DNA from: Trueperella pyogenes | GTDB taxonomy: Bacteria > Actinomycetota > Actinomycetes > Actinomycetales > Actinomycetaceae | Assembly: GCF_900460345.1 (NCBI RefSeq) | Contig: NZ_UHHW01000002.1 | Coordinates: 1,798,001 to 1,862,000, forward strand | DNA: 64,000 nt | Direction of reading: 5' to 3' | Shown here: positions 27,437-43,953 of the stretch, piece by piece | Position numbering within the stretch: the stretch's first letter is position 1 | How the letters are laid out: every line of letters begins with the position of its first letter | Notes under the pieces: generated by a model | The model's input: only the letters and a program-made list of their open reading frames with translations | Told to the model about the DNA's origin: nothing | Databases searched by the model: none | Program-made: the position numbers and the translations under genes

Positions 27437-28837
27437 CTAGGAGCCCCGATGAGTCCTCAAAGAAATTGCATCCTGGTAACGCTCCCACGCGCCGTCATCT
27501 CCTTGGGGATCAAATCGAGTCATGTTAGGTGCCCAGGGCTGAAGGTCTGGCACCCGAAGCCGCATCGCCTGCCAAGCGGCACCAAGCGCCACGTATTCTG
27601 CAGGCTGCGGAACCTCCACCGGGATGTGGAGAATGTTTGCCATCATCTGCTGAACGATCTGGGACTTCGCACCTCCGCCGATGAGGACAGCCGAATCGAT
27701 CCTGGCCCCACCGCGGATCAATGCCTCCATCGCGCCACGTAGTAAGCAACACATCCCTTCAACGGCACCACGAGCGAAAGCAGCTGGAGTAGCAGTGGCC
27801 GGAGTCAGACCGACAATAGCCGCCTGTGCCGACGGAAGATTCGGGGTGCGTTCGCCTTCGAAGTACGGGATCAATACCAGCCCCGAAGGGCTGGCACTGG
27901 CCGCAAGCTCGTCGAACTCTGCGTACGAGACGCTGAGGATGTTCTTCACGTAATCAACGATCCGGCTGCCATTGATCGTACACGCGAGCGGCAACCAGTT
28001 TCCGGTTGCGTCCATGAATCCGGTGACCTCGCCGGCGTCGTCGATCACTGGCTCATTCGAAACGCACGCTACTACGCCAGAAGTACCAAGCGATACGGAA
28101 GCCTGCCCCGGTCGGAGCCCAAGACCAAGCGCGGCAGCCGCGTTGTCGCCACATCCCGGACCGAGCTTTGCCGAGCCAAATTCGGCTGAAAGACTCCCTA
28201 CCGTTTCAAAGGGCTCAGCGATACGCGGAAGCACAATCGCCTTTGCCTCGTCCTCACTTCTGCGCAGCGCACGTGCCAGGAGATCGAACCGATACTGCCC
28301 TGTTCGACAATCCACATAGCCAGTACCGGAGGCGTCCGAACGATCCGTCACAAGATCGCGAATATCCGTGCTCCCCGACAGCTTCCAGGTTAGCCAATCG
28401 TGTGGCAGGCAGATCGCAGCGATACGATCCGCAACCTCCGGATCGTTGTCTGCAACCCAGCGAACCTTTGATACCGTGAGCGACGCTACCGGCGCAGAAC
28501 CGCAGGCATTGACCCAGAACTCTACCGAGTCTTCGTCAATGAGGTCTGCCGCGCTAGACGCCGAACGCAGATCGTTCCACAGTAAAGCGGGGCGAAGGAC
28601 TTCGCCTTGGGTATCCAAGCAGATCAGGCCGTGCTGTTGGCCTGCCACGCTGACTGCTTCACAGTCGGCAATCCCTCCGGCGTCGGCAATTGCCGCCTTC
28701 AGCGCCTCCCACCAGAGCTGGGGATCGACCTCAGTTCCATCTGGGTGAGAAGCACGTCCAGATCGAATCACGACGCCGTCGTCCACGACGACAACTTTTG
28801 TTGACTGTGTAGACGAATCAATACCTGCAACTCGCAT
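27437..28837 (-). CDS. xylB: xylulokinase
   Basis: This 466-residue FGGY kinase phosphorylates D-xylulose to xylulose 5-phosphate. The N-terminal nucleotide motif MRVAGIDSSTQSTKVVVVDD, the substrate motif VAGQQHGLICLD (about residues 64-75), the catalytic Asp in GPGCGDNAAAALG and the C-terminal LIGGGAKSQ are all present. It is slightly shorter than E. coli XylB. It lies directly after xylA (22 bases) and before the binding protein in one operon. Confidence 0.95.
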   Translation of the reverse strand: MRVAGIDSSTQSTKVVVVDDGVVIRSGRASHPDGTEVDPQLWWEALKAAIADAGGIADCEAVSVAGQQHGLICLDTQGEVLRPALLWNDLRSASSAADLIDEDSVEFWVNACGSAPVASLTVSKVRWVADNDPEVADRIAAICLPHDWLTWKLSGSTDIRDLVTDRSDASGTGYVDCRTGQYRFDLLARALRRSEDEAKAIVLPRIAEPFETVGSLSAEFGSAKLGPGCGDNAAAALGLGLRPGQASVSLGTSGVVACVSNEPVIDDAGEVTGFMDATGNWLPLACTINGSRIVDYVKNILSVSYAEFDELAASASPSGLVLIPYFEGERTPNLPSAQAAIVGLTPATATPAAFARGAVEGMCCLLRGAMEALIRGGARIDSAVLIGGGAKSQIVQQMMANILHIPVEVPQPAEYVALGAAWQAMRLRVPDLQPWAPNMTRFDPQGDDGAWERYQDAISLRTHRGS

Positions 28838-28859
28838 AACTCGGCCCTACTTCATATTT

Positions 28860-30032
28860 TTAGCCAATAAGGAAACGAAGAGCTTGCTGGTTGAGCTCAA
28901 CGTAGTGATATTCGCGCTCAGCAGCCTCATCCGGATCGATCTCGGCCGGGGCGGCAACAAAGTCACTCAGGGATTCGCCCGGTTTGAGTGTCGGAACGGC
29001 GAGCTCGGGAATCGAAGCAGCCTGCATGAGCTCCTGGGTGTATGCATCCGCACGGAAGGCCTTGGCCTTCTCGGAAAGCATGATGTACATTTCCATGTTT
29101 GCCTTGGCCGACTCCCACACACCTTTCATTCCCTCGGTGCGTGTGGGCTTGTAGTCGAAATGAATCGGACCGTCGTAGCGCGGACCGCCATTGGAGAAAC
29201 CATTGACGAGCAGATCTACAGTAAAGAATGCGGAGAGCAAATCGCCGTGCCCGAAGACCTTATCCTGGTCATACTTAATTCCCGACTGACCATTGAGGTC
29301 AATATGGAAGAGCTTTCCCGCATTAAGCGCTTGCGCAAGAGCATGGGTGTAATTCAAACCTGCCATCTGCTCATGGCCAGTCTCTGGATTCAGGCCAACG
29401 ACGTCGCCGTTATCCAGCTCTGCGATGAGAGCCAAGGCATGGCCGACTGTCGGAAGGAAAATGTCACCGCGTGGCTCGTTCGGCTTTGGCTCGAGACCAA
29501 TGCGCAGGTTGTATCCCTGCTCTTTGATGTAACCAGCAACGGTATCGAGACCCTCCTTATAGCGCTCGAAGGCCGCGTTGAGATCTTTGGACGAGTCATA
29601 CTCCGCACCCTCACGGCCACCCCACATAACAAAGGTGGTTGCCCCCATCTCCGCAGCAAGATCGACGTTGCGCAGGATCTTCCTGAGGCCAAAGCGGCGA
29701 ATTGAGCGATCGTTGTTTGTCAGACCGCCGTCCTTAAAGATCGGGTGAGTGAAGGTATTCGTCGTGACCATCTCGATCGTGACACCAGCAGCGTCCGCCG
29801 CACTCTTGAACTTAGTAACGACGTCGGCACGTTCCGCATCGGTGGCGTCGAATGGGAACACATCGTTGTCATGGAAGGTCACGCCCCACGCGCCGATCTC
29901 TCCAAGCTTGGTGACATAATCCCACGGAGCCAGCGGTTTACGGGTCGCTTCACCAAATGGATCGTTGGCAAGCCAGCCAACGGTCCACAGACCGAAGGAG
30001 AATTTATCTTCTGGTTGGGGCTGACGAATCAT
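28860..30032 (-). CDS. xylA: xylose isomerase
   Basis: About 390 residues, the class I size found in actinobacteria, with the group's opening [14 protein letters not shown]. Active-site features are present: the catalytic-base His in [12 protein letters not shown], the Glu and Lys metal/substrate ligands in [24 protein letters not shown], and the metal-binding HIDLNGQ. It converts D-xylose to D-xylulose. ATG 30032 is preferred over ATG 30044 because GGAG lies 6 bases before it. It is the first gene of the xylose operon, divergent from a pseudogenised ROK repressor. Confidence 0.96.
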
Positions 30033-30122
30033 GGGTATCTCCATTCGCTAACATCTTTGTTTTGTATCTAAATTAATCTCAAAATAGGACAATTGCAAGC
30101 CCTTTTCGAAGAAAACTCGATT

Positions 30123-30143
30123 TAAGTTTTTCAACGAAACTTA
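30123..30143. promoter_or_regulatory. candidate xyl operator in the xylA upstream region
   Basis: Perfect 7-bp arms TAAGTTT (30123-30129) and AAACTTA (30137-30143) flank a 7-base spacer. The shape recalls XylR (ROK) operators of Firmicutes, which also contain AGTTT/AAACT half-sites. It lies about 90 bases upstream of xylA in the 330-base gap before the dead repressor gene; the rest of that gap (30033-30364) contains no gene that I can recognise. Confidence 0.45.
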
Positions 30144-30364
30144 GCATGATGGTCGAATATTCTCGGTATGTGCAGAGCAGCTCCACATAATGCGCCCCTG
30201 TTGAGCCAACTAACGAGAAGATGACCCGCGTGATAACCGCAAACAGCTCACGATCTTGGAGGATAAGATAACGTCATCTGATTGTCCACCATTGATAGTG
30301 AGGATGGGCATTCGTATGCGCTCCCGATCTTCCGGACACCGAAGGGCAACAAGTGACAGGAACG

Positions 30365-31384
30365 ATGAAAACTCAGCCGGTTTGAGTAAGCCATACGTCT
30401 CTTGTCCTCAGAGCAATCCTTTATCCCGAAGAACCCATTACGCGCGCAGCCCTAGCAAACCTGACAGGATTCACTTGAGCGACTGTCTCGCAACTCGTTG
30501 ATGATTTACACAATTTATAGATTCTTGAGGAACTTGAGCCCAGCTCTTCCGCAGTCGGGCGCCCGTCGTTACCGCTAACAGCAAAACCGCTGTCATTCTT
30601 CACGATTGCGCTTGAACTCAGCGTCAACTACATCGCCATGCTAGTCATTGACCTCGCAGGAAATGTCCTCCACTCCGTCATGGAGGACGGGGATCTGCGC
30701 TCCTCAGATCCGCAAAGAACTCTGCCTCGCGCGGGTAGGATGCTCCAGGAAGAGACATCTCCCGCCAGCTTATAGGGCTTTGAGGGTTCGTAACGAAGCC
30801 GACTCAGCAGCATTCGCTTCGATATACTCCGCCCCTAGGCTGATTTGGATCTCATGACACCTTCCTTTTCTTTCATCAGACGTTGGCATCAGTTCAGCAA
30901 TTATGCTTGTGGCACACTGTTTGAAGGAAAACACTTCCGGACAGACGAATTCGGGCACACGCGTGTTGATCTGCCGGCCCCAGATGTACGTGTGGCGCCA
31001 ATGGGTACCTCGGACAGTACGTTGGCCAAGATGCGCTGCTTTCCGCAGCAAATCTCGCACTAGATCCCCCATCAACAACCTCATTGATCTCTTCGTTGCT
31101 GGTGACGCTGTATAGCCCACAGGACGCTAGACCAGGCAGGAACGAGCCTAGGACGCGCCATCGCGAACGCGCTGAACCTAATTGATATTGATCTTGTGAT
31201 CCTCGGTGGAGACCTTGCCCACCTACTTCCACATGTCGAAAAGCTGCTGTATTCCGAAGTCTCCTATCGTATGCTCGGTTCGCGTTGGGTGGAGACCGAG
31301 CTCGTCGCTGACACCCACGGTGCGCGCACTGCGGTCTTGGGAGCACGCCATGCAAGTTTCGAGGATTTTGTGGAAAACCCGTAG
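30365..31384 (+). pseudogene. degenerate ROK-family repressor (former xylR)
   Basis: Conceptual translation from ATG 30365 (AGGA upstream) gives a ROK protein interrupted by in-frame stops: TGA at 30383, TGA after NLTGFT, and TAG after DLHN-L. It then continues in frame through VGRPSLPLTA and IALELSVNYIAMLVIDLAGN. Later pieces in other frames are GTLFEGKHFRTDEFGH (sugar-site region) and, at 31142-31384, TSLGRAIANALNLIDIDLVILGG through to VENP. Each block aligns with the intact ROK protein encoded at 39011-40174. Two of the stops fall where the relative has Arg (CGA to TGA transitions). The zinc-Cys motif is destroyed and part of the middle is missing. Confidence 0.85.
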
Positions 31385-31507
31385 CACTGTGCATAGCAAA
31401 ATCCTTCCTTAACAGAGTTTTCGGAAGCTGGAGATTCACCATCTTCAGTTGCCCTATCCCGTTGAATCAATCACTGAAAGAGTGGAGTGGAGCGCTCTCA
31501 ATAATGG

Positions 31508-32716
31508 TTACGAGCGTTCAGACAATGCCTTTGCGAGGCCTACCCCGAATGGCAACTCGCAGTAGAGCGCCGCTTGATAAATGTGGTACAGGTCTGGCTT
31601 TCCTTGCCACGTACGTGAGATTGGCTTCAAACCGTCATCCAATTCATAGAACCATCCTGAGTTCTGGTGGTCTATAAGGTACGAATCGGCAAACTGCCAT
31701 AGCTCTCTGTAAGCATCCTTGTACCGAGAATTATCCGTGTGCTGAGCAAGCAAGTGCGCGGCTCCCATAGCTTCAGTTACTGGCCACCAGAACCGATAAG
31801 ATACTATCGGAGCTCCGTCCCAATCTACGGTGTAGGCGAAGCCCGGTAACCATGCATCTCGATATGCGCCCTCAAATAAGTCTTTTGCCGCTGCGACTGC
31901 CCAGTCTTGACTTCGATCTATGGCAAAGATCTGCATAATCAACTTTGCCCACTCTAGCCAGTGGCCTGGAGTTGAACCATACGGTTTGAAAGGATGATCC
32001 GGGTAATCTCGGTTAAAGTTCGGCGTTGGTTTCCACTGCTCATCATAATGTTCAACCAATCGATATCGGCCGCTCAATACTGGCTTCCTCACGAGAAAGC
32101 TTGCGATCCCTACAGCCATATCAAACAACCGTTTCTTGCCAGTTGCCTCGTAAGCTGCAAGGAGCGCCTCCGTCAGATGCATATTGGCGTTGAGCCCACG
32201 ATATGCATCGACATGCGAGAACGAAGCATCATACGTGTCGAGCGCGAGCCCCCACTCGCTCTCCCAGTACTTCGATTCCAACAGTTCCAATGCCTCGGAC
32301 AACAGACTCTCAGCGTTGTTTATCCCCGCGACGCTCGCTGATGCGCTCGCCAGAATAACATGCGCAAGCCCGTAGAGATCCTTCTTTCCTGAACCGACAC
32401 CGTCCTTTACGATCTCATGCCAACCACCACAATCTCGATCACGTCCTGCTCCGGAATAGTAGAAATCGACACCTTGCTGGGCAACCTCAAACGCACCCGG
32501 CCTGCCATCCAGATGTGCAAGGGAGAAACAATGGATCATTCGCGCCGACAACCACAGTTGGATGCCTTTCTCTGGTAACGGGATACCATCAGAACCAAGC
32601 CACCAAAATCCGCCCGAAGGATTTACAACCCGCGTTTGGTAGAAGTCAAGTAACTCAGACCGATATTTTCTCATGAGCAAGCGATGCTCAGCCGTGTTCC
32701 ACGTATAACAATTCAT
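31508..32716 (-). CDS. AGE-family aldose-ketose isomerase (mannose isomerase-like; YihS fold)
   Basis: A 402-residue (alpha/alpha)6-barrel protein of the N-acylglucosamine 2-epimerase superfamily. Active-site landmarks are LWLSARMIH (Arg about 58), NANMH, the catalytic His 252 in STPGHWLEW and His 378 in KPDLYH. Overall it resembles E. coli YihS, which isomerises sulfoquinovose and also mannose. However, the positions corresponding to the YihS sulfonate-binding Arg238 and Gln362 are Pro 242 and Tyr here, which favours D-mannose (or another neutral aldose) to ketose isomerisation. Its ATG overlaps the kinase stop (ATGA). It is the last gene of a six-gene import-catabolism operon. Confidence 0.85.
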   Translation of the reverse strand: MNCYTWNTAEHRLLMRKYRSELLDFYQTRVVNPSGGFWWLGSDGIPLPEKGIQLWLSARMIHCFSLAHLDGRPGAFEVAQQGVDFYYSGAGRDRDCGGWHEIVKDGVGSGKKDLYGLAHVILASASASVAGINNAESLLSEALELLESKYWESEWGLALDTYDASFSHVDAYRGLNANMHLTEALLAAYEATGKKRLFDMAVGIASFLVRKPVLSGRYRLVEHYDEQWKPTPNFNRDYPDHPFKPYGSTPGHWLEWAKLIMQIFAIDRSQDWAVAAAKDLFEGAYRDAWLPGFAYTVDWDGAPIVSYRFWWPVTEAMGAAHLLAQHTDNSRYKDAYRELWQFADSYLIDHQNSGWFYELDDGLKPISRTWQGKPDLYHIYQAALYCELPFGVGLAKALSERS

Positions 32717-33909
32717 CGATAGTCTCCTATTCCAAACTCTAGTCTTGCTAGATCGACGACAGCAGATACAAAGCCACCGATAAACGAATCTCCTAGCCCT
32801 ATCGTCGTCGGATTAGTTATCTGGAGACGCGGTGTCTCGATAAAGTTCCAGCCCGATAGCGACTCCAGGCTAGTCACGAAAGTTGAGCGAACGCCACCAG
32901 ATATCTTGGCACGCATTTTGTCTATATCTAGGACCGTTACAGCGTCCCCTTGAACATACCGCGCCGCCGAAGTGGCAACAGCGCACATCAATGCCGGGAG
33001 AAGATCATCTTTCCGTTTCCCTCCAATGGCGCTCCAATCAGCCGTATGGATGAGAATTGTCTTATCAGGAAAGCTGCCAGACAGTTCGGTCAAGGCGTCC
33101 GCGATCATCCCACAGTCTTTAAAATCGACATCACGCCTAAGTCTTGTTGATAGCTCATCCTCATTGAATGACAGGCAATGCGCAAACTTTTCTGCAGACT
33201 CGAGGACAAGGTCATGCAACTCTTCGTTGTGGAATGCCGCGTCTTCATAGACGATGAACGTCTCCGCAGCAGCTGCCGCAGCTGCTTTTTCAACATCTCT
33301 TAGTCGTACAAGAAGCTCTGTCTTGTCATCCATAGCGTTAAAACCACTCATCAGAACAACCACAGCTTGTCGAAAATACATCGGCAAATTGCAAGACAGC
33401 GGCAGAGTAGAGTTGGCGGCATCGCCGGTCAGTATTATTCGATTCGCTCGTTGAGTAATAAATATATGCTCTCCAACTTTCAGGTTTGCGCCTTTGGGAT
33501 ATTGGATGATCACATGCGGAGACGAAGTCACGTGAGACTGCTCATCCCAAACGAAATCGACGCCTACTGGAAGGAGATTTCGATACTTTGACGGTTCATC
33601 TACGACATGTAGACGGACATTCTTGTCTAAAAGTAACGCGATGAGCGCAGCACGTGCTGCCGTGCCCCCAAGAGTTTCTTGATAGGTAAAGGCCGAATAG
33701 ATCATTTCCAGGTCTTCCTGGCGGGGAACTGAAAACTCAGCGCCTTTACCAGAGAGCATGATCTTCAGAATCCGATGAAGAAGGGTGTCTCCGTCGGTGG
33801 ATGTAACTCCATTTCTTGCCAAAAGCGCGGCAAATGATTCCTCATCCCAGCAAAGTTCATAGTCAATGTTGGCACCTAACCCAAGGAACAAAGGGGGCAC
33901 GGATAACAT
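32713..33909 (-). CDS. ADP-dependent phosphofructokinase/glucokinase-family sugar kinase
   Basis: A 398-residue ribokinase-fold protein resembling the archaeal ADP-dependent glucokinase/phosphofructokinase family. Evidence: the N-terminal FLGLGANIDYELCWD, the GGTAARAALIALLL helix, AVVVLMSGFNAM (compare VLSGLQ-type strand), the NxxE magnesium motif in SFNEDELS, and the GLGD catalytic loop with Asp 374 near the C-terminus. The HxE motif is only partly kept (VYE). ATG 33909 has AAGGAA upstream and follows the aldolase stop by one base; the frame also extends upstream into the aldolase. The expected reaction is phosphorylation of the ketose made by the neighbouring isomerase. Whether ADP or ATP is the donor is unknown. 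Confidence 0.78.
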   Translation of the reverse strand: MLSVPPLFLGLGANIDYELCWDEESFAALLARNGVTSTDGDTLLHRILKIMLSGKGAEFSVPRQEDLEMIYSAFTYQETLGGTAARAALIALLLDKNVRLHVVDEPSKYRNLLPVGVDFVWDEQSHVTSSPHVIIQYPKGANLKVGEHIFITQRANRIILTGDAANSTLPLSCNLPMYFRQAVVVLMSGFNAMDDKTELLVRLRDVEKAAAAAAAETFIVYEDAAFHNEELHDLVLESAEKFAHCLSFNEDELSTRLRRDVDFKDCGMIADALTELSGSFPDKTILIHTADWSAIGGKRKDDLLPALMCAVATSAARYVQGDAVTVLDIDKMRAKISGGVRSTFVTSLESLSGWNFIETPRLQITNPTTIGLGDSFIGGFVSAVVDLARLEFGIGDYR

Positions 33910-33910
33910 T

Positions 33911-34771
33911 TCAGTATTCCTTCGCCATTCCCTCAGCGCCAAAAAGTCGAATTTTGTGTGCAGCAACGCTCTTCATCGCTTCACGAGCAGGAGGCTGAAT
34001 AACATTCGGCTCGCGCAGTGCAGTATCCTGAAGGACCTCGCGCATCTTGACGTAATAGGCAACTTTAATATCAGACGAAATGTTAATCTTGTTGATTCCA
34101 CGCTTTGCAGCCTGACCTATTTCGTCATCTGGATTGTTAGACCCACCGTGCAAAACGAGCGGTACATCAACAATTCCGTCGATTTCATCGAGTAGATCCA
34201 GCCGCAACTCTGGTTGGAGATCTGCAGGATATAATCCGTGGCGAGTTCCAATTGCTATCGCCAGCGAATCAGTACCTGTATATTCAACAAAGCGTGCAGC
34301 ATCTTCAGGGACAGTGTAAATAATGTCATCCGATCCAGCTTCGGCGTATCCATCCGTTTTTCCGATGGTGCCCAGCTCAGCTTCTACAGAGACCCCTACA
34401 GCGTGTGCAGCCTCGACAACCTTCTTGGTCAACTCCATATTCTCTTCAAAGGGTTTCATAGAAGCGTCGATCATGACTGATGTGAAACCATATTGAAACG
34501 CCATGAGCATTTCTTCGTAGGTCGCACCGTGATCCCAATGTATCGCAGTAGGGACAGATGATCTCATAGCCCGTTCGATAATTGACGACATCAGATCCCT
34601 ACGAATATGTTTCATTTCATCGGGATGAATCGCCACGATATGCGGAGCTTCTAGCTCCTCGCAGATATCGAAAATGCCTAACATCATTGAGTAGTCGGAT
34701 ATATTAAAAGCGGGTACGGCAAATCCTTTGTCCGACGCTACTTCAAGAATTTCTTGACCGGAAACTAGCAT
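33911..34771 (-). CDS. class II ketose-(bis)phosphate aldolase
   Basis: This 286-residue zinc-dependent aldolase belongs to the FbaA/GatY/KbaY family. Catalytic Asp and zinc His are in IHWDHGATYEE (about residues 78-88), with further zinc ligands in IGTRHGLY and LHGGSNNPDDE; the phosphate-binding end NKINISSDIKVAYY is present. It would cleave a ketose 1-phosphate or 1,6-bisphosphate to dihydroxyacetone phosphate plus an aldehyde. It is encoded between the ABC permeases and the kinase and is coupled to the latter. ATG 34771 has AAAGG upstream. Confidence 0.9.
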   Translation of the reverse strand: MLVSGQEILEVASDKGFAVPAFNISDYSMMLGIFDICEELEAPHIVAIHPDEMKHIRRDLMSSIIERAMRSSVPTAIHWDHGATYEEMLMAFQYGFTSVMIDASMKPFEENMELTKKVVEAAHAVGVSVEAELGTIGKTDGYAEAGSDDIIYTVPEDAARFVEYTGTDSLAIAIGTRHGLYPADLQPELRLDLLDEIDGIVDVPLVLHGGSNNPDDEIGQAAKRGINKINISSDIKVAYYVKMREVLQDTALREPNVIQPPAREAMKSVAAHKIRLFGAEGMAKEY

Positions 34772-34825
34772 GTTATTACCTTTCTAGAATAACTGAATCA
34801 TTTTTCTTTGCACTGGGGACGGTGT

Positions 34826-35671
34826 TTAGTCTTTAATCGCGCCTGCCGTCATACCTCCAATAAAGAACCTTTGAAAAAGAACGAAAAGCAAAACGACAGG
34901 AATTGAACCGAGCACACTCATCGCCATCATCTCGTTCCACTCGTATGAATGTTGTCCCATCAAAAGTTGGATACCGATGGGGACTGTACGCATGCTGATC
35001 GACTGCGTCAGAGTCAGCGCAAATAGATACTCATTCCATGCAATCATGAAAGTGTAGATACCAACTGAGGTAATCCCCGGGATTGATAGTGGCACGAGCA
35101 CTCTCCACAGGGTGCGGAAAGAGCTGCAACCATCAACTTTCGCAGCCTCGTCCAGTGAAGTCGGGAGGGTGTTGAAGTACCCCGTCATCATGATGATTGC
35201 GTATGGCAGAGTAAAGATCATATAGGTAAATATCAGCCCCCTATATGTGTCATACATCCGTAATGCAACTACAAGACCAAAGTATGGGATCAACAAGGTA
35301 ATTGGCGGCACAGCTTGAACCGACACGACAATCACATTGATGGCTCGTTTTCCTGGAAAGCTGTAGCGCGAGAATGCATAGGCTGCCAAGATGGCGACCA
35401 TTAGCGTCAGTACCGTCACGCTTCCAGCTACAAAATAGGAGTTTAAAAAGAAGCGGATCTTCTCACTGTCATTCAGAATAGACTTATACGCCTCGAGAGA
35501 GAAGCTCTCAGTAACCAGTTTCGGCGGCCAGGCAAATATTTCTGGATTCGACTTAAATGATGAGGAAATCATCCATACCACCGGCGCGGCAGCAAACAAC
35601 GCGCCAAGAATTAGGCCAACTGTCACCCCTATGGTCTTAACAATCCTGCGATTCTTTCGCGAGATTTCCAT
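34826..35671 (-). CDS. sugar ABC permease, MalG type, importer C
   Basis: A 281-residue permease with six hydrophobic segments. The EAA loop SLDEAAKVDGCSSFRTLWRV lies near residue 173 and MISSSFKSNPEIF near residue 35 marks the MalG branch. It shares one base with the stop of the upstream MalF-type gene. A 54-base gap then precedes the aldolase gene. Confidence 0.92.
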   Translation of the reverse strand: MEISRKNRRIVKTIGVTVGLILGALFAAAPVVWMISSSFKSNPEIFAWPPKLVTESFSLEAYKSILNDSEKIRFFLNSYFVAGSVTVLTLMVAILAAYAFSRYSFPGKRAINVIVVSVQAVPPITLLIPYFGLVVALRMYDTYRGLIFTYMIFTLPYAIIMMTGYFNTLPTSLDEAAKVDGCSSFRTLWRVLVPLSIPGITSVGIYTFMIAWNEYLFALTLTQSISMRTVPIGIQLLMGQHSYEWNEMMAMSVLGSIPVVLLFVLFQRFFIGGMTAGAIKD

Positions 35672-36567
35672 TAGTTACTCGCTTTCTGGTGGCGAACATA
35701 AAAGGCTGCCATGATCATTGAAAGAATCAGGATAATGACTGCGCTCGCCGAGGCTAAGGAAAACTGATAAGTAGAGAACGCTAACTTATAGGTGTATGTA
35801 GGTAACACTTCCGTTCTGTCAATCGGCCCGCCGCCCGTCGTCATCCAAATCAGGGCAAATTGCTGGGACGTCCAGATGACGTCGAGCAATGCCATAGAGA
35901 TAAGAATCGGACGCAGCTGCGGCAACGTAATGGAAAGAAATTTTCTGATAGCTCCCGCCCCATCGACCTCAGCTGCCTCATACAGCTGAGTCGGAATACC
36001 TTGCAAGCCCGCCAAAAGACTGATCATAAAAAATGGATACCCTGCCCAGATATTTATGACGCACAATGCGACAAGTGCAGTATTAGGATCGCTGAGCCAT
36101 TCATTATTTGCATCTATCACCCCCAAGGACACAAGTAGATAGTTGGCAACGCCGTTCGGATTGAGAATCAGCCTCCACAAGACAGCAATAATTGCAACCG
36201 TTAGAAGCCATGGGAGGACATAAAGTGTGCGGAAAAAAGTCAGAGCGGCTCTAGGTAGCAGCGAAGTATTGAGCATCATCGCAAATGCCAGGCCAATACT
36301 CATATGGGCGAGCACCGAAGCAACGATGAAAATCGCGCTATTTTTTACCGCTGTGAGGAAAACGGGATCAGCGAGTACTTGTGCATAATTATCAAACCCG
36401 ACAAACTGAGGATTTTTATTCATGATGACGTTGTCCATCAAGGAATACCACATCACCATGCCGATAGGGATTGCCATCAATACGACGAGAAGAACCAGCA
36501 CGGGACTCAGGTAGATATAAGGTACGGCACCCCTGAACTTTTTCTTGTATCTCGGTATCCTCACCAT
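35671..36567 (-). CDS. sugar ABC permease, MalF type, importer C
   Basis: A 298-residue permease starting at ATG 36567, behind GGGAG; the frame reaches 36630 without a ribosome-binding site. Six membrane segments and the EAA loop LYEAAEVDGAGAIRKFLSI near residue 198 are visible. The periplasmic-side pattern WMTTGGGPIDRTEVLPTYTY is typical of this subunit. It forms the importer with the MalG-type partner and the binding protein encoded just upstream. Confidence 0.9.
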   Translation of the reverse strand: MVRIPRYKKKFRGAVPYIYLSPVLVLLVVLMAIPIGMVMWYSLMDNVIMNKNPQFVGFDNYAQVLADPVFLTAVKNSAIFIVASVLAHMSIGLAFAMMLNTSLLPRAALTFFRTLYVLPWLLTVAIIAVLWRLILNPNGVANYLLVSLGVIDANNEWLSDPNTALVALCVINIWAGYPFFMISLLAGLQGIPTQLYEAAEVDGAGAIRKFLSITLPQLRPILISMALLDVIWTSQQFALIWMTTGGGPIDRTEVLPTYTYKLAFSTYQFSLASASAVIILILSMIMAAFYVRHQKASN

Positions 36568-36636
36568 TTCTGTCACTCCCACACTGGCCTCCCGCCGTAA
36601 TTGACAACAACTGTTATTGGTTAACACCACAGCTGA

Positions 36637-37917
36637 CTAGAATTTGCTTTCCCATTCCGATTGCACCGCTTTCAATGCGTCATCGATAGAGATGCTGCCT
36701 TCAAGGGCCTTCTGAAGGTTCTGGCTGAACGCACGCATTAGTTCCTCTGCTACTGGCAACCCCGTAAACTCATTCGCAGGAACGCCGTCGGACCAAATCT
36801 GGAAAGCTTTCTGGAACAGCGGGTCTTCCGAATCGAAGTTAGGCTTTGCCCTAACATTTCCAGGGAAAGCATGCGCTTGTTCACATAGCTTGGCATTTGC
36901 TTCGGGCGAAAGAAGGAACTCAACCAATTTCCATGCAGCGTCCTGGTACTTTGTATTAGCTGAGACCCCAATACCCCAAGATGCATAAGCCATTCCGCGC
37001 TTGCCAGAATAATTGTCCGTTGCTGGCATCGCGGAAATATCGAAGTTGAGGTTCGGGTTATTCTTACGAATAAGATTAATATGTGCGAGGGAATCAATCA
37101 TCATAGCCACACGGCCGTTCGAGAATTCCTCAACTTTGTCCTGCTCCTTCATGGTGTAGGCACCAGGAGCTACAACACCATCATCCCAGAGCGTTTTGAT
37201 GAATTCGAGTGTCGACTTAACTTCATTGTTAGTCACAGCAGGCTTTCCTCCCGTCAGCATCGAGCCACCTGTTGCCCAAACCCATGACATCACGTCATTT
37301 TGGACCCCGTTAGGTGCTTCAAGAGAGAGAGGAATGACCCAACCATTTGCACCAGTAGAACTCTTTACTTTCTTCGCAGTTTCTGCAAAATCAGCACGGG
37401 TATCAGGGGCTTTTTCTACTCCAGCCTTCTTGAGTAGGTCAGTATTGGTGAACATTGGATACGCAAAGTTGACAACTGGAATCATGAATGTCTTATCGTC
37501 AACTTTGATTTGACTCGCGAGCTGCTTCTCATCGTAACCAGCGCCTGACATGATGCTGCTCAGGTCGGCAATTGCGCCCTGCTTGGCGAAATCGCTGACC
37601 CACGCGCCATCCAAACCGACCACATCGGCCATAGTGTGCGATGCGGCACCTGCTACCATCTGTTCCTTTGTGCTTGCGTAGGGGCCAGAGATTAGCTCAA
37701 CCTTAATTCCAGGATTGTCCTTTTCGAACTGATCCATCAGGCCCCGTAAAGAACCTTCTGGAAGCTCGGGTTCCCACCACTGCGAGAACTTTAGTGTAAT
37801 TTCTCCGTTCTTCTCTGAAGCAGAATTATTTGACTCTCCGCCACATCCACTAAGACCTAGTGCGAGAGCCGCTGCGGCTCCGATAGCGACTGCACGCGAC
37901 AGCCTTGGCACTTTCAT
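36637..37917 (-). CDS. sugar ABC substrate-binding lipoprotein (CUT1), importer C
   Basis: A 426-residue lipoprotein with a signal peptide ending in LSGCGG (Cys about 25). The mature protein shows ITLKFSQWWEPELPEGSLRGLMDQFEKDNPGIKV, SHTMADVVGLDGAWV and GRVAMMIDSLAHI, typical of sugar-binding components. It is the first gene of the operon that continues with two permeases, aldolase, kinase and isomerase. It is transcribed divergently from a DeoR regulator, with a palindromic operator candidate between them. Confidence 0.92.
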   Translation of the reverse strand: MKVPRLSRAVAIGAAAALALGLSGCGGESNNSASEKNGEITLKFSQWWEPELPEGSLRGLMDQFEKDNPGIKVELISGPYASTKEQMVAGAASHTMADVVGLDGAWVSDFAKQGAIADLSSIMSGAGYDEKQLASQIKVDDKTFMIPVVNFAYPMFTNTDLLKKAGVEKAPDTRADFAETAKKVKSSTGANGWVIPLSLEAPNGVQNDVMSWVWATGGSMLTGGKPAVTNNEVKSTLEFIKTLWDDGVVAPGAYTMKEQDKVEEFSNGRVAMMIDSLAHINLIRKNNPNLNFDISAMPATDNYSGKRGMAYASWGIGVSANTKYQDAAWKLVEFLLSPEANAKLCEQAHAFPGNVRAKPNFDSEDPLFQKAFQIWSDGVPANEFTGLPVAEELMRAFSQNLQKALEGSISIDDALKAVQSEWESKF

Positions 37918-37983: not shown

Positions 37984-38006
37984 GCACTAAACAACTAGTT
38001 TAGTGC
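37984..38006. promoter_or_regulatory. palindromic operator candidate between importer C operon and deoR-type gene
   Basis: Perfect 9-bp arms GCACTAAAC (37984-37992) and GTTTAGTGC (37998-38006) flank a 5-base spacer. The element lies centrally in the 190-base divergent region, 67 bases from the binding-protein start. Two tandem copies of ATTCCCGCA follow at about 38009-38027. Control by the adjacent DeoR-family protein is the natural hypothesis. Confidence 0.6.
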
Positions 38007-38109
38007 ATATTCCCGCAGATTCCCGCATTTATCTGCAGATTTACACGCAAAATTAAGCTATATGCCCTGGAAGACTGCCCATATCCGCATCTCGTACTAT
38101 CATGAACTC

Positions 38110-38907
38110 ATGGTTGACCAACGATTACTGCCTCGCACACGTCAAGCTGAGTTAGCAAAGCGCATTTTAAGCGAGGGGCATATGACTGTAGCTGATCTTG
38201 CTGCTGAATTTGATGTCTCCGCCGATACGATCCGTCGAGATCTTTACGTACTCGATAAAGCGGGAACAATTGTACGCGCGCACGGTGGAGCCATGAATCC
38301 ACTTTCCATCGCAAAACCAGACACCCGAGTCGATGTCCGACTGAAATTCAAGAATGACGAGAAGATCGCTATTGCAAAAACTGTTGCGGATCTGATCCCC
38401 GATCAGTCAACGTTAATCGTCAACGGCGGAACTACCACGCTCCAGCTTGCACATGCTCTCCGTGATCATCGAGATCTCACAATTGCCACTAACAATCTAC
38501 GATTTCCCCAGATAATCCCTGCTAACTGCTTCCAGGACTTATATGTTTTCGGCGGACGCGTCCGTTCTCAAATGGAGACCACTGTAGGCAAACTTGAGCT
38601 TCCGCACGGAGATCTCACACAGCCCGTTGATTTCAAGGCAGATTATGCGGTAATTGGCGTAGGGGGAATCGTCACGGATGGCTACGTTACGTCTAACCTC
38701 GCAGAAGGTGGCATGATCGCGGAGATGATTGCCCATTCTGCTATCCCGATTATCGTCGCTGATGACACGAAGTTTAATCGAAGTCTTTTTGCGAATATCG
38801 GCCCCCTTTCGGTTGCAAAATATCTAGTTACAAATGCAGAGCCACCCGAGGATCTCAATACAGCGTTGATATCAAACGGTGTAAAAGTTGTAATCGCATC
38901 TCTTTAA
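38110..38907 (+). CDS. DeoR-family transcriptional regulator
   Basis: About 265 residues from ATG 38110 (MVDQRLLPRTRQ); the frame also opens at ATG 38062, and neither start has a clear ribosome-binding site. The N-terminal winged helix contains MTVADLAAEFDVSADTIRRDLYVLDKAGTIVRAHGGA, the standard DeoR signature. The rest is the DeoRC sugar-phosphate sensor (VNGGTTTLQLAHAL, IGVGGI, IVADDTKFNRS). DeoR proteins of this group usually respond to phosphorylated sugars, so a ketose phosphate produced by the divergent operon is a likely effector. Confidence 0.88.
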   Translation: MVDQRLLPRTRQAELAKRILSEGHMTVADLAAEFDVSADTIRRDLYVLDKAGTIVRAHGGAMNPLSIAKPDTRVDVRLKFKNDEKIAIAKTVADLIPDQSTLIVNGGTTTLQLAHALRDHRDLTIATNNLRFPQIIPANCFQDLYVFGGRVRSQMETTVGKLELPHGDLTQPVDFKADYAVIGVGGIVTDGYVTSNLAEGGMIAEMIAHSAIPIIVADDTKFNRSLFANIGPLSVAKYLVTNAEPPEDLNTALISNGVKVVIASL

Positions 38908-39010: not shown

Positions 39011-40174
39011 TCAGCTTTCACCGACGACAGGCTCGCGCAGAAAACTGTGGAAGGCCATCAGACAAGCACCACGAGCTGCGGTTAATTGCCCGTGCTTTGA
39101 TGTACGAATTCGCAAGTTAGACCAGCGCGAGGAAAGAACACGATATTGAATCTCGGCCGACAGGAGATTTTCCATATGCGGGAACAGGATACTTAAATTT
39201 CCGCCCAGGATAACCAGATCTAGATCCAGTAAGTTGAGAGCATTTGCTAAAGCCCGACCGAGGGAAGTACTTGCTAGATCGACCGCATCTCGGGCGATAC
39301 TACTACCGTGTTTAAATGCCATCACAAGATCATTAACCGATGTCCCTGCCGGGAAATTGCGCAAGAGGCTAGCTTCTCCCGCATACTGTTCCAAACAGCC
39401 GTTAGCCCCACAGCCACACTGAGGGCCATTTGGGTCGATACACATATGCCCAATCTCGCCCGCCCAGCCATTCTTACCTGTGAATAGTTCTCCGTTTATT
39501 GCGATGGATGCCCCAATTCCTACTTCACCCGACATGTATACGAAAGACTGTTCGGAAGACGGAGCTCCTGGCCTCTCATACAAAAACGAGAAAGCGCTAG
39601 CATCAGCCTCATTGACCACCTGCTTTTGTGCAGAAACGCCAAATATAGGAAGCGTATCTGTCTTTACTTGCTCCCAACCCAGATTAGGCGCAGTGATGAT
39701 CGTTGAAGTCTGCTTATCAACGAGCCCCGGCACGCACAAGGTGACGCCAACGATACGAGTAGACGCTGGATATTGCCATTGTGACAGTAAAGTCTCTAAC
39801 TCGTTGAATACCACTTTAGGGGTTGAATTTCGATAGTTTCCAGACTTTATTGCGGAAAACGCCACCATTCCAGAAAGATCGAGTACTACTACGGAAAGGT
39901 AGTGAATATTTATCTCTAAGCCGATGCACACATACGTCAAGCTGCTTGCAGTGAGCGGCACCGAGGGACGTCCTGTCGCTCCTGCTAGTGCAGGAAGTTC
40001 TGTCAGTAGATTCCAGTCGACGAGGTCGCTTACTAATCGAGAAACCGTCGCACGAGTTAAATCCGTTCGTTGCGCAACTTGCGCGCGAGAGATAGGACTT
40101 TCGGCGCTTAGAATTGTCCGTAACACGAGAGACAAATTGGAGATGCGGAGATTCTGTGATGTGGCCGCAGGCAT
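39011..40174 (-). CDS. ROK-family transcriptional repressor (XylR/NagC type)
   Basis: A 387-residue ROK regulator with an N-terminal winged helix (ILSAESPISRAQVAQRTDLTRATVSRLVSDL) and an ATPase-fold sugar sensor. The sensor contains ASIAINGELFTGKNGWAGEIGHMCIDPNG and the zinc-binding CGCGANGCLEQYAG, followed by GRALANALNLLDLDLVILGGNLS. It diverges from the alpha-xylosidase gene, so it probably represses the GH31-importer D operon in the absence of a xyloside or xylose. It is the closest relative in the window of the degenerate repressor next to xylA. ATG 40174 has AAAGGA upstream. Confidence 0.9.
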   Translation of the reverse strand: MPAATSQNLRISNLSLVLRTILSAESPISRAQVAQRTDLTRATVSRLVSDLVDWNLLTELPALAGATGRPSVPLTASSLTYVCIGLEINIHYLSVVVLDLSGMVAFSAIKSGNYRNSTPKVVFNELETLLSQWQYPASTRIVGVTLCVPGLVDKQTSTIITAPNLGWEQVKTDTLPIFGVSAQKQVVNEADASAFSFLYERPGAPSSEQSFVYMSGEVGIGASIAINGELFTGKNGWAGEIGHMCIDPNGPQCGCGANGCLEQYAGEASLLRNFPAGTSVNDLVMAFKHGSSIARDAVDLASTSLGRALANALNLLDLDLVILGGNLSILFPHMENLLSAEIQYRVLSSRWSNLRIRTSKHGQLTAARGACLMAFHSFLREPVVGES

Positions 40175-40320
40175 AGCGTAAATTCCTTTTATTCCCTGGT
40201 CGTATGTCTCTGCTTTGAATCATACTGCTTTCTGCTGTTTAAACGTGAACCCATACTACCGATCGCGGAAACATGATTTCACGGAAATGGAATACTGTCA
40301 CAGCGCAGAATAACAGAGAC

Positions 40321-40362
40321 TTTGTTTTATTGATTGACAAACAATTATTCGTCATTCATGCT
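40321..40362 (+). promoter_or_regulatory. promoter and ROK operator candidate of the alpha-xylosidase operon
   Basis: TTGACA (40334-40339) and CATGCT (40357-40362) with 17 bases between them form a plausible promoter. Arms TTGTTT (40322-40327) and AAACAA (40339-40344) overlap the -35 box, a position suited to a repressor. A second symmetric element, GTTTAAAC (40237-40244), lies nearer the ROK gene. Confidence 0.4.
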
Positions 40363-40397
40363 TGTCTTGTTAGCACGTTTCAAAGGAGTGGGTGCAC

Positions 40398-42665
40398 ATG
40401 AAGTTTACGGACGGTTATTGGCTCTACCGCAATGGCTGGTCTGTGCTACATCCACGCACCATTCAACGCATTGAGAAGATTGAACGCGGTATACGTATTT
40501 ATGCCCCTACTTCGTATTTAGTTGAACGAGGAGATGAAGTCGGCGCTACGATCTTGACGATCTCCATAACAGCTGTTGCCGAGGGAATTGTTAAGACAAA
40601 AATTGAGCACTTCTATGGCTACCTCAACCCGCAACCAGTCTTCGATATCGCGCAGGATCAAGCCCCCAACTATTCCGTCAGAATAGTTGGGACGGAAGGG
40701 GTGTTAGCTTCTGGAGATCTTAGAGTGAAAATCGGATCATCCGACGGCTTTCGCATTGAGTATTATCGAGGGGACGAACTCCTCACAGCTTCCATACCGC
40801 GCTCTACTGGCCTTGCAGTATCTCCCAAAGGGGAAAAGTTTTTACACGAACAGCTTCTCGTTCAGCCAAATGAATTTGTTTATGGGCTTGGTGAACGATT
40901 TGGGCCAACAATCAAAAATGGTCAACATATCGAGATGTGGAATGCAGATGGCGGGACAGCCACCCAACAGGCGTACAAGAACGTTCCGTTTTACCTCACG
41001 AATCGAAATTACGGCGTGCTGGTCAATCATCCGGAGAAGGTTGAATACGAAGTCTGCTCGGAGATCAATTCAAGAGTACAGTTCTCAGTTCCTGGCGACA
41101 GCCTTGAGTATTTTGTTATTACAGGTGCAGATCCTAAAGATGTCATAAAAAGATACACTGATCTGACAGGCAAACCGCCACACGTGCCAGAATGGTCTTA
41201 TGGATTGTGGCTATCAACGTCTTTCCGAACCGACTACTCAGAGGAAACCGTTACAGGCTTCCTCGACGAAATGGACAAGCTTGGCATTTCTGTCTCAGTG
41301 TTACACCTCGACTGCTATTGGATGAGGCCATCCCACTGGTGTGACCTCGTTTGGGATCCCGAAAAGTTCCCTGACCCAGATCGCATGCTCCGCAACTATC
41401 ATGAGCGTGGAATCAAGGTGTGCGTATGGATCAATCCTTATCTGGGGCAGCAGTCAGATGTCTGGAGCGAGGCCAAGGTTAAAGGATACCTGCTTAAGGC
41501 TACCGATGGCTCTGTTCGACAGTGGGATCACTGGCAAAGCGGACTTTCCTGGATTGATTTCACAAATCCCGAAGCCACCGAATGGTGGAAATCCAAATTA
41601 AAAGAATTACTCCGTCAAGGCGTGGACTGCTTTAAAACAGATTTTGGAGAGCGCGTGCCAACTGATGTCATTTGGCACGACGGCTCCGATCCAATGCGCA
41701 TGCATAACTACTACACCTATCTCTACAATCGTGCGGCCTATGAGGCTATTGCGGAAGAACGTGGCGAGCAGGAGGCATTGGTATTCGCGCGCTCGGCGAC
41801 CGTCGGAAGCCAAACACTCCCCGTTCACTGGGGAGGCGATTCGGAACCTACATTTGTATCGATGGCTGAGACTTTACGGGGAGGTTTAGGATTTGGCCTT
41901 ACCGGATTCCCGTACTGGTCACACGATATGGGAGGTTTTGAGGGGCAACCTGATCCTGTTCTGTTCAGCCGCTGGTTCGCTTTCGGCATGTTTTCCTCCC
42001 ATTCTCGTTTACACGGATCGAATAGTTATCGGGTGCCGTGGATTTATGGTGAGGACGCGGTACGGGTCGCAAAGAAATTTACACAAATAAAACGAATGTT
42101 GCTTCCATATCTCAGGCAGCTGGAGAATGATGCAACAGAACTGTCCATACCGTTTATTCGCCATATGATTCTAGAATTCCCGAACGACCTTGGCAGTGCC
42201 ACTGTGGACACTCAATATATGTTTGGCCCAAACATCCTTGTAGCACCAGTTTTTAACAATGCTGGTGACGCCGATGTGTATCTCCCGACGGCGGGGTGGA
42301 CGTCTCTGCTGACTGGCGAGCGATACGAGGAACGCGGCTGGTTCAGGCAGCAATATGCGATTGATGTTCTTCCGTTGCTTGTTCCAGATGGAGCCGTCAT
42401 TCCTCTCCTACTCGAGGATGGGAGGAAAGTATTAGCGCTCTTTGCCCCTCAGGACGGGGAAACTGAGATTACGGTCGAATGGAAAGAAGGTGAGCGAGAA
42501 AAGATAGTTCTGCAAGTTTTCGGCGAAAACGTTGATGTCACCTCACCTGATTGTGGAGTTGCTGCGCTCGCAATCTATAACGCTTCGAGCAATGAACTCG
42601 TAGATTCCACAACGAATGAGCTTTTACCTTTGGCGGCACCGAAAATTTGGAAAACGCTGAAATAA
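40398..42665 (+). CDS. yicI: alpha-xylosidase (GH31, YicI type)
   Basis: A 755-residue GH31 enzyme that is extensively similar to E. coli YicI. Shared blocks include MKFTDGYWL at the N-terminus, VYGLGERFGP, EMWNADGGTATQQAYKNVPFY, WSYGLWLSTSFRT and FARSATVGSQ. The nucleophile is Asp 415 in FKTDFGER and the acid/base is Asp 481 in HWGGDSE. YicI releases alpha-linked xylose from isoprimeverose and similar xylosides. Start ATG 40398 is chosen over GTG 40392 because AAAGGAG lies 9 bases before it. There is no signal peptide, so it acts on imported substrate, presumably delivered by importer D encoded just downstream. Confidence 0.95.
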   Translation: MKFTDGYWLYRNGWSVLHPRTIQRIEKIERGIRIYAPTSYLVERGDEVGATILTISITAVAEGIVKTKIEHFYGYLNPQPVFDIAQDQAPNYSVRIVGTEGVLASGDLRVKIGSSDGFRIEYYRGDELLTASIPRSTGLAVSPKGEKFLHEQLLVQPNEFVYGLGERFGPTIKNGQHIEMWNADGGTATQQAYKNVPFYLTNRNYGVLVNHPEKVEYEVCSEINSRVQFSVPGDSLEYFVITGADPKDVIKRYTDLTGKPPHVPEWSYGLWLSTSFRTDYSEETVTGFLDEMDKLGISVSVLHLDCYWMRPSHWCDLVWDPEKFPDPDRMLRNYHERGIKVCVWINPYLGQQSDVWSEAKVKGYLLKATDGSVRQWDHWQSGLSWIDFTNPEATEWWKSKLKELLRQGVDCFKTDFGERVPTDVIWHDGSDPMRMHNYYTYLYNRAAYEAIAEERGEQEALVFARSATVGSQTLPVHWGGDSEPTFVSMAETLRGGLGFGLTGFPYWSHDMGGFEGQPDPVLFSRWFAFGMFSSHSRLHGSNSYRVPWIYGEDAVRVAKKFTQIKRMLLPYLRQLENDATELSIPFIRHMILEFPNDLGSATVDTQYMFGPNILVAPVFNNAGDADVYLPTAGWTSLLTGERYEERGWFRQQYAIDVLPLLVPDGAVIPLLLEDGRKVLALFAPQDGETEITVEWKEGEREKIVLQVFGENVDVTSPDCGVAALAIYNASSNELVDSTTNELLPLAAPKIWKTLK

Positions 42666-42705
42666 ACATTTGAATCACCAATAGTTCTTCACAAAGGAGA
42701 GAAGG

Positions 42706-43953
42706 ATGAACAAGACAAGGTTGTCGCGTTCCGCGGCGCTCATTGGAGCTGCTGCACTCGTAGGCGTTTCCCTCACGGGGTGTGGGGGCACTAAGGAGAC
42801 AGATACTAGTTCCAAGGGATCTGAAAATCAGGTCACTCTGGAAGTCTGGGATTATCTAGGCCAAGGAGTTTCAAATGAAGCCATGGAAGCGTCAGTTGCG
42901 GCATTTGAAAAGGCTAATCCGAATATCAAAATCAAGCGTACGTCATTTGCGTATGCAGACCTATCTACGTCAATTGTACAGGGTGGAATTGGTGGTTCAC
43001 TTCCCGATGTAGCTATCGCTGATGTCGTCGATACTCAGAATTTTGCCTCGCTAACATTGCTGATGGACGTGACAGATAATTTTGCTGAAAAATCGAACGA
43101 GTTTTTCGATGGGCCATGGAGCTCAACACAATTTAATGGCAAAACTGTGGCGCTGCCTTTGAATTCCAATAACCTCGCCCTTTACTACAACAAGGCTATG
43201 TTCAAGGAAGCCGGAGTAGAAGTCCCCACAACATGGCAAGAGCTTCATGATACTGGCAAAGTTCTCGCTAGAGACGGGAAGAGTGCACTGGCGATATCTG
43301 CGATTAAGTCTGAGCAAGGATCATTCCAGGTTTTGCCCTTTGTTTGGCAGACTGGAGGAGACCTAAAGAATTATGATAAGTCCGGTGCCGAAGCCCTTAC
43401 TTACCTTAAGCGTCTTATTGATGATGGAGTCATGTCTTCCTCAGTTACGAACTACACTCAGGAGGACGCGCGGACACAGTTTGTTACTGAAAACGTCGCG
43501 ATGATGATTAATGGTCCGTGGGAACTGCAGAACCTAAAAGCGGAGAATATTGATTTCGGAGTCGCAATGTTGCCGAAAGGGGCAGAATCCGCCACCGGAC
43601 TTGGGGGCGAGAATATCCTTGCTTTTGCAGGCAGCAAGCATCCTGAAGAAGCCAAGAAATTCATGGAATTCATGGCACTGGGCCAAGGAACCAAGACGTA
43701 CCTCGACAAATCAGGACAGCTCACAGCTCGTAAGGATCTAAGCGGAGCCCTTGAGACTTCTAAAGACGAAAATATGGCTGTCTTTGAAGCACAAATGGAA
43801 TACGCGCGTGCGCGTGCATATGGAGGCGAATATAATAAAATCTCTGAAGCGATCCAAATCTCGATCCAGGCTGCTTTAACTGGTAGCTCGTCTCCGGAAG
43901 ATGCCGCAAAAACGGCTGCCGATACTATTAAACCGTTACTGCCTACGAAATGA
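42706..43953 (+). CDS. sugar ABC substrate-binding lipoprotein (CUT1), importer D
   Basis: A 415-residue lipoprotein with lipobox LTGCG (Cys about 26). The mature region begins VTLEVWDYLGQGVSNEAMEASVAAFEKANPNIKI and later shows GGSLPDVAIADV and NVAMMINGPWELQ, as in maltose/oligosaccharide binding proteins. The gene starts 40 bases after the alpha-xylosidase stop with AAAGGAGAG before the ATG. By context it binds an alpha-xylosidic oligosaccharide. Confidence 0.92.
   Translation: MNKTRLSRSAALIGAAALVGVSLTGCGGTKETDTSSKGSENQVTLEVWDYLGQGVSNEAMEASVAAFEKANPNIKIKRTSFAYADLSTSIVQGGIGGSLPDVAIADVVDTQNFASLTLLMDVTDNFAEKSNEFFDGPWSSTQFNGKTVALPLNSNNLALYYNKAMFKEAGVEVPTTWQELHDTGKVLARDGKSALAISAIKSEQGSFQVLPFVWQTGGDLKNYDKSGAEALTYLKRLIDDGVMSSSVTNYTQEDARTQFVTENVAMMINGPWELQNLKAENIDFGVAMLPKGAESATGLGGENILAFAGSKHPEEAKKFMEFMALGQGTKTYLDKSGQLTARKDLSGALETSKDENMAVFEAQMEYARARAYGGEYNKISEAIQISIQAALTGSSSPEDAAKTAADTIKPLLPTK

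Follow-up and report, generated by a model that had tools for sequence, protein, structure and literature searches.

A 64,000-nucleotide stretch of Trueperella pyogenes DNA (contig NZ_UHHW01000002.1, positions 1,798,001 to 1,862,000 of the forward strand), referred to at its full length as the window, contains a putative sugar operon of six minus-strand genes that run from 37917 to 31508, and a gene for a DeoR-family regulator that is divergent at 38062. Gene families were assigned by Pfam and NCBIfam. A sequence-only reading of the window had assigned a CUT1 importer, a class II aldolase, a homologue of ADP-dependent kinases and an isomerase of the AGE family to the operon, and all of these are present. 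The DeoR gene, which was counted as part of the same system, is also present and divergent, but is located just outside the span of 31508..37917 that this reading gave. The features are as follows.

36637..37917, minus strand: CUT1 solute-binding protein (SBP), 426 amino acids (PF01547)
35671..36630, minus strand: CUT1 permease, MalF-like (PF00528)
34826..35671, minus strand: CUT1 permease, MalG-like (PF00528)
33911..34771, minus strand: class II aldolase, probable ketose-1-phosphate aldolase, 286 amino acids (PF01116, 292.1 bits; PRK08185, 373.8 bits, cut-off 405; EPN replaces DPR)
32713..33909, minus strand: PF04587 sugar kinase with glucokinase-type sugar residues, 398 amino acids (PF04587, 62.3 bits, cut-off 27)
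31508..32716, minus strand: AGE-family isomerase, D-mannose isomerase-like, 402 amino acids (PF07221, 320.3 bits; NF051846, 327.7 bits; YihS histidine positions kept)
38005..38037, minus strand: probable operator for DeoR (TGC four times at 10-bp steps, in the sbp-deoR gap)
38062..38907, plus strand: DeoR-family regulator, 281 amino acids (PF08220 and PF00455)

We propose, with a probability of roughly 0.58, that the operon is dedicated to the catabolism of a single free sugar, which would be imported, isomerised, phosphorylated at C1 and cleaved. What we infer from the observed gene content, conserved order, family assignments, residue patterns and tandem repeats is the order of these steps, the phosphorylation at C1, the regulation and all of the substrates. 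The ABC importer would bring the sugar into the cell in an unphosphorylated form, the AGE isomerase would convert the aldose to its ketose, the PF04587 kinase would phosphorylate the free ketose at C1, and the class II aldolase would cleave the resultant ketose 1-phosphate into dihydroxyacetone phosphate (DHAP) and an unphosphorylated aldehyde. The operon would be controlled by DeoR through the tandem TGC repeats.

The kinase gene most likely starts with ATG at 33907-33909, and not with TTG at 33966, because the resultant protein of 398 amino acids matches the database copy P0001, and therefore it does not overlap with the aldolase gene. The gaps between neighbouring genes are -4, 1, 54, -1 and 6 bases when the kinase start is corrected in this way. 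The gap between the sbp and deoR genes contains four tandem TGC at 10-bp steps (38005-38037, minus strand). At least three TGC at 10-11-bp steps are detected in 70 of the 98 related sbp-deoR intergenic regions, as compared to 1.8 expected, when the regions are extended by 60 bp at both ends (the window region is not extended) and the expectation is obtained from shuffles that keep only the base composition. The search of the entire T. pyogenes genome for four TGC at 10-bp steps gives five matches at three places, which are the operon, the beginning of a nuoL-like frame and the inside of a TetR-like frame, and no sugar gene is found at the operator-like sites other than that of the operon. The simplest reading of this result is that DeoR governs a local regulon, as had been supposed from the gene arrangement.

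Conservation of the operon among actinomycetes

The search for relatives with the single kinase sequence gives no match. When an alignment is used as a query in a scan of named-species genomes, 170 relatives are confirmed, of which the best 80 were kept. The loci examined amount to 112, one of which (L124) was left out, with no kinase being called in it; the remaining 111 hold one species at least twice (L034 and L085). An aldolase of the same family is encoded close to the kinase in 109/111 loci, and both permeases and the SBP are encoded near the kinase in 108/111. The SBP-permease-permease-aldolase-kinase core is all on one strand in 108 of these actinomycete loci and in exactly this order in 105, and a deoR gene is located nearby in 102. 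When one locus is retained per group of kinases that are at least 80% identical, 72 loci remain, among which the aldolase and transporter genes are on the same strand in 72, the order is exact in 69 and a deoR gene is present in 69. Thus, the conserved arrangement exceeds chance. Co-occurrence of the enzymes in other genomes, which the sequence-only reading had chosen as its own test, is therefore observed for the kinase and the aldolase. In contrast, the three-enzyme set that contains the AGE isomerase is not a conserved unit, because an AGE gene is linked to the operon in only five of the 111 loci besides the window, whereas a cupin related to phosphomannose isomerase (PMI) is linked to it in 58.

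With a profile of 12 kinases, the kinase is detected in 33 of 396 order genomes, the T. pyogenes genome included, and in one of 396 genomes of a phylum sample, which is the T. pyogenes genome itself. It is absent from all three same-genus genomes listed in the order sample, and therefore the distribution of the operon is patchy. Relatives of the operon are found in Cellulomonas, Microbacterium, Arthrobacter, Actinoplanes, Micromonospora, Nonomuraea, Actinomyces, Schaalia and other genera, and the closest named kinase outside the T. pyogenes genome is that of Mobiluncus curtisii (44% identity). A search of open-licence papers for the gene set or its parts gave no description. The operon is real and recurrent, and it is apparently undescribed.

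Residue patterns of the kinase and aldolase

The kinase belongs to PF04587 not only by its score but also by its fold and its GXGD and NXXE motifs. The Asp residue of GLGD is conserved in 111/111 relatives and the Asn residue of NxxE in 109/111. The term ADP-dependent is only a family name for this kinase. The counterparts of Glu90, of His at 181 and of Asp at 212 are conserved in 111/111 relatives, while Lys179 is conserved in 0/111, and this is the pattern that PMC7948494 gives for glucose- rather than fructose-6-phosphate-binding enzymes. Judged from these residues, the sugar site of the kinase is glucokinase-like. The kinase differs from archaeal ADP-dependent glucokinases and phosphofructokinases in size (398 residues as compared to 432-488 among the first 16 matches listed) and sequence (15-22% identity to the same 16), as well as in being encoded together with an aldolase and an importer.

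The aldolase shares PF01116 and the HGGS loop with class II ketose-bisphosphate aldolases, and this loop is conserved in 111/112 family members. It does not have the Arg residue of their DPR motif, which is absent in 109/112 family members; DPR is found in three, and the window aldolase has EPN. In bisphosphate aldolases, this Arg residue acts at the distal phosphate. In three loci (L056, L058 and L060) the operon is richer, with two aldolases, the second of which retains the DPR motif, a second PF04587 protein and a short-chain dehydrogenase. In the PMI-like cupin, the position of Arg274 of E. coli ManA, a residue of true PMIs, is occupied by Leu, Met or Ile in 58/58 proteins. The residue patterns of the kinase, aldolase and PMI-like protein argue against a 6-phosphate, and lend support to the ketose 1-phosphate route that had been suggested for the operon.

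If the operon were used for ordinary mannose utilisation, the kinase would make mannose or fructose 6-phosphate for glycolysis and the aldolase would be a spare fructose-bisphosphate aldolase. Archaeal ADP-glucokinases phosphorylate C6 of glucose, and the glucokinase-like residues of the kinase fit this alternative. However, it is improbable in view of the loss of the DPR Arg residue from most of the aldolases and of Arg274 from the linked PMI-like enzyme. In addition, a second PF01116 protein is encoded elsewhere in the T. pyogenes genome, and therefore the operon aldolase is not the sole class II aldolase.

Dak1, Dak2 and EIIA-man/HPr proteins are encoded downstream of the kinase in four loci (L032, L034, L057 and L085; Pfam checked in L034), and these are exactly the four loci in which the aldolase has EPD instead of EPN. 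These loci would fit a route in which the kinase makes a ketose 6-phosphate, the aldolase cleaves it into dihydroxyacetone and glyceraldehyde 3-phosphate, and a dihydroxyacetone kinase finishes the pathway. This route is very improbable, however, because the loops read as the site for the phosphate of DHAP are kept (HGGS in 111/112), DhaK is linked to the operon in only 4/111 loci, and the Dha proteins may serve glyceraldehyde instead.

Entry isomerases

The window AGE isomerase keeps the positions of His176, His248 and His383 of YihS, and the active centre of the AGE family has three His residues according to PMC7762179. It therefore has the three catalytic His residues of an AGE-family D-mannose isomerase, but its score to NF051846 is below the cut-off of 600, which is passed in 0/396 order genomes. 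The AGE gene is linked to the operon after the kinase gene in L061 and L062 and after the deoR gene in L070, L094 and L120, in addition to the window. These linked sequences fall, by topology, in three places of a FastTree tree of 86 AGE sequences, which includes the sequence of L158 that was left out of the residue comparison.

The PMI-like cupin, a protein of 280-360 amino acids related to type I PMI, is encoded directly downstream of the kinase in 54/111 loci and upstream on the opposite strand in four more. The total of 58 is a lower bound; the PMI-like open reading frame of L032 is missed by a second gene caller. The member scanned scores 62.8 bits to TIGR00218 as compared to a cut-off of 116.2 and gives no PF20511 match at E 0.001, so that neither this score nor Arg274 is that of a type I PMI. 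ManA proteins with PF20511 are encoded away from the operon in 32 of the 36 genomes searched, that of T. pyogenes included, and are distinct from the PMI-like proteins.

AGE and PMI-like genes are found together in 0/111 loci, although with three AGE clades this exclusion is statistically not strong. Because the AGE sequences fall in three places of the tree and never share a locus with the PMI-like gene, two folds appear to serve one isomerase step. The AGE isomerase belongs to a set of entry enzymes that can replace one another. In two Promicromonospora loci (L091 and L125), the operon is followed by genes for a xylose-isomerase-like TIM barrel protein and a GFO/IDH/MocA oxidoreductase, which may be another entry for the sugar.

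AGE matches are detected in 228/396 order genomes and in 28 of the 33 operon carriers, and all five carriers without them (G065, G097, G107, G135 and G251) have a PMI-like gene after the kinase. Among the named loci, 43 have no PMI-like gene directly after the kinase, and the genomes of 40 of them were tested, with L080, L085 and L124 being left out. AGE is found in 10 of these 40 genomes, and 17 others have a PMI-like gene somewhere, four of these genes being deoR-side copies. A rule that a carrier without the PMI-like gene always has AGE holds for 15/15 genomes in the order sample, four of which also carry an unlinked PMI-like gene, but fails in the named set and was rejected.

We propose more tentatively that the operon represents an as yet undescribed aldolytic pathway shared among actinomycetes, in which a bacterial branch of PF04587 would act as a ketose 1-kinase together with a class II ketose-1-phosphate aldolase, and for which the entry isomerase would have been recruited repeatedly from two folds without common origin, phosphate-independent PMI cupins and, in three clades, AGE barrels. 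If the proposed pathway is right, the operon of these 33/396 order genomes degrades a sugar by enzymes that are misnamed ADP-dependent glucokinase and fructose-bisphosphate aldolase, and the PF04587 family gains a role outside glycolysis.

AGE proteins are also found in other contexts. The T. pyogenes genome encodes a second AGE-family protein (G000:C2:196003-197253), which is 39-40% identical to the window AGE isomerase in two pieces. Three Brachybacterium proteins named oligoribonuclease (P0223, P0236 and P0240) contain both PF00929 and PF07221, and are exonucleases fused to an AGE domain.

Imported sugar, known pathways and neighbouring genes

The amino acid sequence identities of the SBPs between the isomerase classes are 64.6-66.3%, and those within the two large classes are 67.5 and 67.7%, all uncorrected for kinship. 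Because these values are similar, all operon variants probably import one ligand, as far as SBP sequences can tell. The SBP model (predicted local distance difference test score, pLDDT, of 87.0) gives dozens of CUT1 matches with tied Z values, which range from 37.4 to 40.3 among the matches listed, and therefore the ligand is not readable from this model.

AGE isomerases and the PMI family have mannose/fructose chemistry in common. According to PMC7762179, the substrates that one characterised AGE enzyme interconverts are mannose, fructose and glucose, as well as lyxose and xylulose. In Schaalia vaccimaxillae (L177:7183-13354), an AGE relative (P0189, 48% identical to the window AGE isomerase) is encoded among ABC transporter genes, a PfkB kinase and a mannitol dehydrogenase family protein. 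Because of this shared chemistry and this gene neighbourhood, D-mannose is our first guess for the imported sugar, which would be degraded via fructose and fructose 1-phosphate to DHAP and glyceraldehyde, but this guess is a doubtful one. A C5 or C6-modified relative, such as D-lyxose, a 6-deoxyhexose or another C6-substituted hexose, is, taken together, about as likely as D-mannose.

Several observations weigh against the proposed pathway. AGE is missing in 30 of the 40 tested carriers without the PMI-like gene directly after the kinase. Moreover, neither AGE nor the PMI-like gene is found in 13 of the 40, where at most 38 PMI-like candidates were scored per genome and a weak one may be missed; these are five Agreia, two Subtercola, two Cryobacterium, two Rathayibacter, one other member of Microbacteriaceae and one Microbacterium metagenome-assembled genome. 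FruK-like proteins, which would act on fructose 1-phosphate, are detected at E 1e-30 in 30/33 operon carriers, with 14 of them over the cut-off, so that a separate fructose 1-phosphate aldolase looks redundant there; no FruK-like match is found in the T. pyogenes genome. Finally, an aldehyde-handling enzyme is not conserved among the loci, and for glyceraldehyde only the Dha proteins of 4/111 loci are available. The FruK and glyceraldehyde results also weigh against D-mannose as the sugar. Among the matches listed, neither a glycosidase nor an aldehyde enzyme recurs around the operon across genera.

The genomes with neither isomerase would be explained if the imported sugar is already a ketose (fructose, psicose, tagatose, sorbose or xylulose). 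The importer, kinase and aldolase would then be enough, and the isomerase would be an additional enzyme through which the matching aldose can enter as well. About half of the loci have neither AGE nor the PMI-like gene beside the operon (58 and 5 of 111 have one), and SBP identity does not vary with the class even though neither isomerase is found in 13/40 genomes. However, isomerase genes have joined the operon repeatedly, the 13 genomes could use an isomerase from a third family, and DUF4432 (PF14486), which is presumably a mutarotase-type protein, is linked to the operon in 14/111 loci, which fits an aldose. A start from a ketose is thus rather unlikely.

The redundancy with FruK, which many carriers could use for plain fructose 1-phosphate, is avoided if the imported hexose is modified at C6 (sulfo, deoxy or other). 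As in sulfoglycolysis, the products would then be DHAP and a C3 aldehyde that keeps the modification. None of the three enzymes shows a sign of a 6-phosphate, and the window AGE isomerase is hydrophobic or has Tyr and Pro near the positions of the YihS glutamines. On the other hand, no sulfolactaldehyde or lactaldehyde enzyme is found among the assignable genes directly downstream, and known actinobacterial sulfoquinovose clusters have homologues of YihS, YihV and YihT and a sulfolactaldehyde dehydrogenase instead, according to PMC8873060. Such a sugar is a possible, though unlikely, substrate, slightly ahead of a ketose start.

The proposed import-isomerise-phosphorylate-cleave plan, which is in line with the gene content, gene order and residue patterns, resembles that of the sulfo-Embden-Meyerhof-Parnas (sulfo-EMP) pathway (E. 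coli yih and its Arthrobacter variant). According to PMC9594981 and PMC8873060, this pathway also has an AGE isomerase that acts on the free sugar, a C1 kinase that acts on the ketose and an aldolase that gives DHAP and a C3 aldehyde, and its actinobacterial variant has an ABC importer. However, its kinase is of the PfkB family (PF00294) and its aldolase YihT is of class I (PF01791), whereas the operon has only a PF04587 kinase by Pfam and a class II aldolase (PF01116). The positions of Gln362 and Gln379 of YihS, which have a role in sulfonate binding, are occupied by Tyr and Pro in the window AGE isomerase, in agreement with the earlier statement that this isomerase lacks the sulfonate-binding residues. 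No sulfolactaldehyde reductase or dehydrogenase is encoded by the six operon genes and the DeoR gene, as had also been noted, the rest of the genome not having been searched for them. The sulfo-EMP2 pathway of Bacillus urumqiensis shares, at the family level, a class II aldolase (SqiA, PF01116) that acts on a ketose 1-phosphate. It differs in SqvD (FucI family, PF02952) and SqiK (PfkA family, PF00365), according to PMC9594981, in place of the AGE isomerase and PF04587 kinase. Sulfoglycolysis as such was rejected, because the kinase and aldolase families exclude sulfo-EMP, and the isomerase and kinase families exclude sulfo-EMP2. The operon works like sulfoglycolysis without the known sulfonate end, but is not a member of it. 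If the proposed pathway is right, it is a second case beside sulfoglycolysis in which the same three steps are built from different enzyme families.

Two other systems are similar in part. Mammalian liver ketohexokinase converts fructose to fructose 1-phosphate, which is cleaved into DHAP and glyceraldehyde in fructolysis. The route of the operon would be the same if its sugar is mannose or fructose, but the enzyme families are different. The ydj cluster of E. coli encodes a regulator, the sugar kinase YdjH, which is of the PfkB type, and the class II aldolase YdjI. The annotated substrate of YdjI is a ketose 1-phosphate, and YdjI is without DPR, like the operon aldolase. This cluster differs from the operon in its long-chain substrate and its other kinase, and no ABC importer and no isomerase are listed for it.

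The operon is flanked on one side by genes for an FGGY kinase and a xylose-isomerase-like TIM barrel protein (window 27437-30044), which we take to be a xylulokinase and a xylose isomerase, and on the other side by genes for a ROK protein, a GH31 alpha-xylosidase (NF007940, 1004.7 bits, cut-off 606) and another CUT1 importer (window 39011-44909). Thus, the operon looks like it is embedded in a separate alpha-xyloside island. The region of about 1.46 kb between the xylose-isomerase-like and AGE genes (30045-31507) contains no gene-like frame in the three minus-strand frames, and possibly represents the remains of a former gene.

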